IMG/VR virus record: IMGVR_UViG_3300022169_000001
Location: 1-36,019 of that record
Length of the DNA stretch: 36,019 nucleotides
Direction: 5' to 3' (one strand)
Origin: a virus
Shown one piece after another: positions 19,174 through 19,854 of this stretch; within the stretch, counting starts at the first letter, position 1, and each line of letters opens with the position of its first letter. Position numbers and translations under genes: made by a program. The notes beneath the pieces were generated by a model. The model did not search any database. It was given only the letters and a program-made list of their open reading frames with translations, and was not told the origin of the DNA.

Positions 19174-19854
19174 TTATGCTACCTCCCTTAATTTTATTAA
19201 TTGATTCTCTTTATAAACTTTCTTAGCCATGTGACCATGAGCAGGATAGACAATCAACTCAACATCTTTATCCCAACATGACCGACAGGTATCACACTTA
19301 CCATCTCTCTCGTATGCTAGACAGACCTCAATGTTTCCTAGGAAACTTACTGGTGTCTCTACATAGGGGACAATAGTGGAAGTAGTAGCCCCATCAACAG
19401 TCCCGCCTGTGATACTATCACTGCTAAACCTAACAACAACATTGGGTAGTAACGCCATTGCATCTAACACCTCCTTATATTTATCAAACTTATACTGTCT
19501 AGTTGGGAACCAATGCTGACACCAAGGCGTAGCTTCCATGATAGCATACATCTTCCAAGCTAGTTTAACTGTATAACAGTCACCGCTATCGAACCATCGA
19601 AAGTAACGCGAGTTATCTAGCTTGACTATGAACTCATCAACAAACTCAGGACGTTTCCAATCCTCCTTGTTGTGTTGGCGTAGTGCCTTAACACTAGGCA
19701 TCTGATAGAAGCCACCTCTTGCGTAGCATATCTCACAAGCTGCAACGACAGCACCAGTGACAATATCTACAGCACCAGCACACGTAAGCATAGCTTCTAG
19801 TGACCATGAAAAGCATGGCATCTTACTGGCTGCACTAAACTTTATACTACTCAT
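19174..19854 (-). CDS. Gp88-like cysteine-rich protein
   Basis: 226 residues. The core motif CEICYARGGFYQMPSVKALRQHN is read at residues 40-62 (C40, C43). It is followed by YFRWFDSGDCY (R86, D89, S90, G91, D92) and HWFPTRQYKFDKY. A C-terminal four-Cys cluster is C178, C187, C190, C193 (CDTCRSCW). This arrangement is that of the phage GP88 domain (named from a mycobacteriophage), a probable metal or Fe-S protein of unknown activity. GAGGA lies 7 bases upstream of the ATG. Palindrome copy 4 is inside the frame and encodes residues 170-174 (SFLGN), in the linker before the Cys cluster. Confidence 0.8.
   Translation of the reverse strand: MSSIKFSAASKMPCFSWSLEAMLTCAGAVDIVTGAVVAACEICYARGGFYQMPSVKALRQHNKEDWKRPEFVDEFIVKLDNSRYFRWFDSGDCYTVKLAWKMYAIMEATPWCQHWFPTRQYKFDKYKEVLDAMALLPNVVVRFSSDSITGGTVDGATTSTIVPYVETPVSFLGNIEVCLAYERDGKCDTCRSCWDKDVELIVYPAHGHMAKKVYKENQLIKLREVA
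19333..19346. repeat. Palindrome GTTTCCTAGGAAAC, copy 4 (inside a gene)
   Basis: The only copy within a coding frame. Read on the minus strand it encodes SFLGN in the Gp88-like protein; the frame avoids the TAG. The linker position suggests tolerated insertion. Confidence 0.95.

Follow-up and report, generated by a model that had tools for sequence, protein, structure and literature searches.

A dispersed 14-nt palindrome with one in-frame copy in a GP88-family gene is a probable regulatory DNA site in the early operon of an uncultured phage

The stretch analyzed here, referred to as the window (WIN in comparisons between contigs), is the record of an uncultured bacterial virus with a total length of 36,019 nt and a 127-nt terminal repeat. 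Structural genes (terminase, portal, major head, and tail) are encoded rightward, and a leftward block extending from 22.1 to 10.2 kb constitutes the early/replication operon, which includes many small genes and codes for a primase-helicase, a DNA polymerase A, a 5'-3' exonuclease, and a Gp2.5-like ssDNA-binding protein. Among the window proteins searched, which were a subset of the ORFs, there were no repressor, integrase, or lysogeny genes of known type and no match to an RNA polymerase family. The leftward genes that bear on the analysis were the following:

13153 to 14838, minus strand: family A DNA polymerase
15461 to 17077, minus strand: T7-type primase-helicase, with an in-gene linker site in relatives and none in the window allele
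17430 to 17711, minus strand: helix-turn-helix (HTH) protein of 93 aa, a candidate regulator
19174 to 19854, minus strand: GP88-family protein of 226 aa (Pfam PF17338, E = 7e-30)
21634 to 22086, minus strand: P150, a protein of 150 aa whose gene comes first in the leftward operon, of no known family and a candidate site-binding regulator

Three similar promoter-like sequences of the TTGACTT...TATAAT type were present on the plus strand at 2826 to 2871, 22962 to 23007, and 27683 to 27728 (repeat family D9), and ACGCACCATAATAGTGC or a similar sequence occurred three times upstream of the leftward operon at 22225 to 22340 (repeat family D18). Two neighboring small genes at 20226 to 20575 were diverged duplicates of one another (repeat family D11), and a tail-fiber-like gene at 30860 to 31723 contained many 21-nt repeats rich in Ala/Ser/Asn/Thr.

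The sequence GTTTCCTAGGAAAC, a perfect palindrome of 14 nt, was present in eight exact copies in the window, all of them in the leftward operon:

10233 to 10246, minus strand: copy 1, overlapping the stop codon of the last leftward gene, with a terminator-like GGGGGCTTAGTTGCCCCC hairpin right after it
13138 to 13151, minus strand: copy 2, 1 base past the DNA polymerase stop codon
18011 to 18024, minus strand: copy 3, in the leader of a gene pair encoding a 95-aa protein and the HTH protein
19333 to 19346, minus strand: copy 4, read in frame within the GP88-family gene as SFLGN (residues 170 to 174)
20021 to 20034, minus strand: copy 5, including the TAG stop codon of a 68-aa gene (20026 to 20232)
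20980 to 20993, minus strand: copy 6, 1 base past a stop codon and in the leader of the next gene
21203 to 21216, minus strand: copy 7, immediately past the stop codon of one gene and in the leader of the next
21413 to 21426, minus strand: copy 8, in the leader of a 64-aa gene (ATTGGAGAGTACCATG)

With up to three mismatches allowed, the window contained nine matches, all but one of them perfect, compared to 1.44 expected and at most 5 in any of 100 shuffles. The repeated palindrome, including its in-frame copy, is real and beyond chance. Seven of the eight copies were intergenic, copy 4 being the sole in-gene copy in the window, and the stop codon of the upstream gene was touched by, contained in, or at most 2 bases away from copies 1, 2, 5, 6, and 7. 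The flanks were oriented on the coding strand, with AA before the palindrome in most copies and ATTG after copies 3 to 8, followed next by GGAGA and a start codon in copies 3, 6, 7, and 8. The core in the window is perfectly palindromic, and orientation was carried by the flanks only.

The earlier note had placed one copy in frame within a Gp88-like gene, and this was accurate: the gene belongs to the GP88 family, the codons AGT TTC CTA GGA AAC encode SFLGN as described, and the copy lies in a linker just N-terminal of the Cys cluster, ahead of CDTCRSC. The TAG of the palindrome is not read in frame, because it is split over the codons CTA and GGA. Copy 4 was exact in five relatives with 90 to 96% protein identity (L001, L002, L003, L006, and L007), and AGTTTCCTAGGGAAAT was found at the same position, with the length unchanged, in L004 and L005 (the L005 contig is also represented by a longer piece, L120). 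A search of genome contigs with the GP88 protein found no relative. That GP88 proteins can spare these residues, as the note had stated, was borne out by homologues with 56% identity (L008 to L013) and by the L100 allele, in which the linker was 2 to 4 residues shorter and FLGN was absent. The alignment that the note had proposed therefore agreed with dispensable residues but did not reveal the 14-mer as a clean insert. Relatives that encode the same residues with other codons and have no palindrome, which the note had named as counterevidence, were not cleanly represented, since L083 (FLGN from TTC CTT GGA AAT) and L004 (FLGK) both retained the TTTCC...GGAAA arms. These arms were present in 13 of the 13 Gp88 alleles listed, and in site-bearing alleles the Phe codon was always TTC and the Gly codon always GGA or GGG.

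A second in-gene site was found in relatives (L101 to L121 and others), in which the primase-helicase linker V-S-x-G-N-F-D is encoded with an in-frame GTT TCC NNN GGA AAC/T (position 5908 in L119, 10161 in L121, and 3089 in L117). The window and its clade have K-P-N-G-N-F-D in this linker, with the same length, a GGT codon for Gly, and no site, so that the two versions differed by substitutions only, with no indel. The comparison of GGA with GGT is partly circular, as GGA belongs to the site definition, and it serves here only to show a codon change with the residues retained. A possible third in-gene case, read from its flanks, is MNIIETEELKFPKETY at the start of a small gene.

Further loci were gathered by primase-helicase and other searches, yielding 247 sites (159 nonredundant) in 63 contigs, and flanks were used to group the sites into orthologous places. 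Related contigs carried sites at the same places, with up to nine sites per contig, and each genome had its own version, differing mostly in the 2- or 3-nt center between TTTCC and GGAAA (TA, TAG/CTA, A-N-T, TCA, CAA, ACA, and a few others). Among the nonredundant sites, 38% had a stop codon (ORFs of at least 50 codons) within -3 to +14, compared to 6% at shifted positions; 86 of the 159 preceded a start codon with a ribosome-site-like sequence in between, and 15 were in coding sequence. Spacer length agreed in 97% of within-contig site pairs. When cores were shuffled among contigs within orthologous places, agreement averaged 61% with a maximum of 78%, and none of 2,000 shuffles reached 97%; this test does not preserve phylogeny, and the comparison of WIN with L120 below is therefore the cleaner evidence. 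Distant relatives (63 to 65% in the primase) had other palindromes before ribosome sites, namely, GTTTCTATAGAAAC in L130, L136, and L137, GTAAATCATGATTTAC in L132, GTTAATCATGATTAAC in L133, and GTTAAT[AG]CATTAAC in L135, and the leader ttaccaa..aaa-site-..tggagta was recognizably the same place in L130, L132, L133, and L135. Our search of the literature, mainly of freely accessible papers, did not turn up any description of palindromes of this kind for this group of phages.

Across 7.8 kb, WIN and L120 were 96% identical with nine gaps only, and all four shared sites had shifted from a 2-nt to a 3-nt center. Every site found in L004 and L120 by a TTTCC-gap-GGAAA search, intergenic or in Gp88, was TTTCC-TAG-GGAAA or TTTCC-CTA-GGAAA. 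The site at 13138 differed by a 1-nt insertion with unchanged flanks, the site at 20021 by an indel and a substitution, and the site at 10233 and the Gp88 copy by substitutions only, the Gp88 frame being kept. The same outcome was thus reached via different mutations, some of them frame preserving, which would be difficult to account for if the DNA sequence were not under selection. These data show a dispersed set of sites changing specificity in nature with one of the sites under protein-coding constraint. The suggestion in the earlier note that a regulatory site is kept within the gene is supported at the DNA level by this concerted switching of in-gene and intergenic copies, and copies changing together in related viruses favor a protein-binding control site over a jumping DNA element.

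Three features of the sequences favor the sites acting as duplex DNA. The reverse-complement centers TAG/CTA, ACT/AGT, and TCA/TGA coexisted within one genome, which a reader of duplex DNA would lead one to expect; sites of the A-N-T class had a free middle base while the flanking A and T remained complementary; and predicted RNA hairpins were weak, most of them no stronger than those of shuffled sequences. An RNA-level element, in which an mRNA hairpin between genes would serve in processing, stability, or translation control at the ribosome site, is accordingly an unlikely reading, although the fixed orientation of the flanks and the positions at stop/start junctions leave some room for an RNA role and hairpins of 5 to 6 bp are possible in transcripts. 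Relative to shuffles, hairpin z values were -0.7, -1.5, -1.2, +0.2, -0.65, and +0.35, with a single one at -2.4, and the AU-rich palindromes of L132 and L133 folded at -2 kcal/mol. The outer pairs were unpaired in sense RNA (A..C) at 30 sites, beside 82 with G.U, and the loop sequence flipped to its reverse complement inside one genome.

It is also rather improbable that the palindromes are recombination linkers, i.e., short common sequences at gene junctions that would enable single-gene cassettes to be exchanged by homologous recombination. It is true that WIN, L001, L006, and L007 differ in the small genes lying between copies 5 and 8 while the sites stay, but the changes were confined to the site with identical flanks (the 13138 site), and the sites inside Gp88 and primase-helicase are at no cassette boundary.

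Promoters for T7-type phage RNA polymerases are dispersed, and their specificity changes in concert between related phages. The sites described here resemble them in being dispersed and changing in concert, and they were often just upstream of genes. Such promoters are nonetheless a very improbable identity for sites that are dyad symmetric, one of which is at the operon end before a terminator-like hairpin, in a window with no RNA polymerase among the proteins searched. Least credible was the earlier note's other suggestion of a mobile palindromic element inserting into genes and elsewhere in the manner of Rickettsia palindromic elements, which are about 150 bp, carry an ORF/peptide, and insert (PMC10969869), and that suggestion is rejected. 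A palindrome that recurs and has a copy in frame within a protein linker is common to both, but the unit here is only 14 nt and not a multiple of 3, neither a target duplication nor a clean empty site was seen, the in-gene copies differ from site-less alleles of equal length by substitutions without indels (as in the primase linker), L004 and L120 lack the exact 14-mer at the same gene length, and the same positions hold different palindromes in relatives.

The 14-mer is probably a double-stranded DNA site for a dimeric regulator, itself probably phage encoded, that damps early transcription in the manner of stoperators; protein binding, the dimer, the identity of the regulator, and the effect on transcription are what we infer. 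A regulator dimer would bind the palindromes along the leftward early/replication operon, which are positioned at stop codons, within the leaders that hold ribosome sites, and in the coding linkers of two genes. The bound protein would most likely damp or block operon transcription, much as stoperators act when occupied by their repressor, and the effect may be a shutoff of early genes in the lytic cycle. As the specificity of the regulator changes, all sites would change along with it. Points that speak against this reading are the mixed centers of L002, L062, and L104, the negative result for known repressor, integrase, and lysogeny genes among the window proteins searched, and the weak covariation of candidate proteins with the sites described below.

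The best candidates for the protein that reads the sites are P150 and the 93-aa HTH protein, both put forward on the basis of position and co-occurrence; a host factor is also possible. P150 co-occurred with sites in 42 of 42 loci, 41 of which had at least two sites, and was found in no site-less locus of at least 8 kb. In most relatives, a site was present in the leader of the P150 gene or just behind the gene. With the primase controlled, P150 divergence showed no relation to spacer length (partial r = 0.03). An AlphaFold model of P150 was all-helical (pLDDT, 80), for which Foldseek gave no significant match and VIA-align gave only middling ones (Z up to 7.6). At the sequence level, P150 had no solved relative and no match in the phage collection, and homology to the first-gene products of L133 and L135 was not detected.

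Members of the HTH family share a conserved MS(I/L)xFxPKI start, their recognition helix is highly variable, and they were present in many phage contigs with and without palindromes. Two of the phage contigs found via this family, L232 and L235, carried another dispersed gapped palindrome, GTACAC-NNNN-GTGTAC, in ten copies. The HTH protein was first set aside as the recognizer, as divergent HTH proteins share one site type, and was reconsidered because, among members of its own subfamily, the residue that opens the recognition helix (residue 61) segregated with spacer length, being S, P, or K in 15 contigs with 2-nt spacers and A in 10 contigs with 3-nt spacers. Close relatives had RSSNTCAWHVH with TA (L003 and L006) versus RSANTCAWHVH with TAG (L004 and L120). 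The candidacy was weakened in turn because wider homologues break this rule (P in L157 and H in L121, both with 3-nt centers) and because many phages with HTH homologues have no such sites. Clear covariation with the sites was found for none of the proteins.

A more specific form of the regulator reading is offered tentatively, as a possibility that we hold to be well short of likely: in this apparently virulent phage group, the genome-wide set of symmetric sites may act as a self-identity code that a single regulator (probably P150) reads and in which the specificity of this regulator and all sites, those in protein linkers included, switch together, giving phage-specific early shutoff or exclusion of relatives. 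Two kinds of center were present in the mixed genomes L104, L115, L002, and L062, which are possible intermediates of a specificity switch, and L104 has sites close to the P150 gene that are unlike its distant ones. If a regulator is confirmed, these phages would have a stoperator-like system with no signs of lysogeny in the genes searched, and the mixed genomes would be natural intermediates in which the switching of an operator set can be studied. The in-gene copies would be a simple case of regulatory sequence embedded in stretches that code for protein linkers.

Among known systems, the closest appears by comparison to be the stoperators of Cluster A mycobacteriophages (L5 and Bxb1), which are many short sites in short intergenic spaces, oriented with transcription, with a genome-specific consensus that tracks phage relatedness; each is an asymmetric 13-mer to which the repressor of a temperate phage binds as a monomer (PMC6550527, PMC9283540). 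As in that system, multiple short sites (eight in the window) are distributed through one phage genome, are mainly intergenic (seven of eight in the window, with coding sequence holding 15 of the 159 nonredundant sites), and have a consensus that is uniform within a phage and different between phages. Unlike Cluster A stoperators, the sites described here are palindromic or nearly so, with orientation in the flanks alone, some are inside coding linkers, and the window proteins searched included no repressor or lysogeny gene. Given this symmetry, the palindromes are not classed as members of the Cluster A stoperators, but they may work like them.
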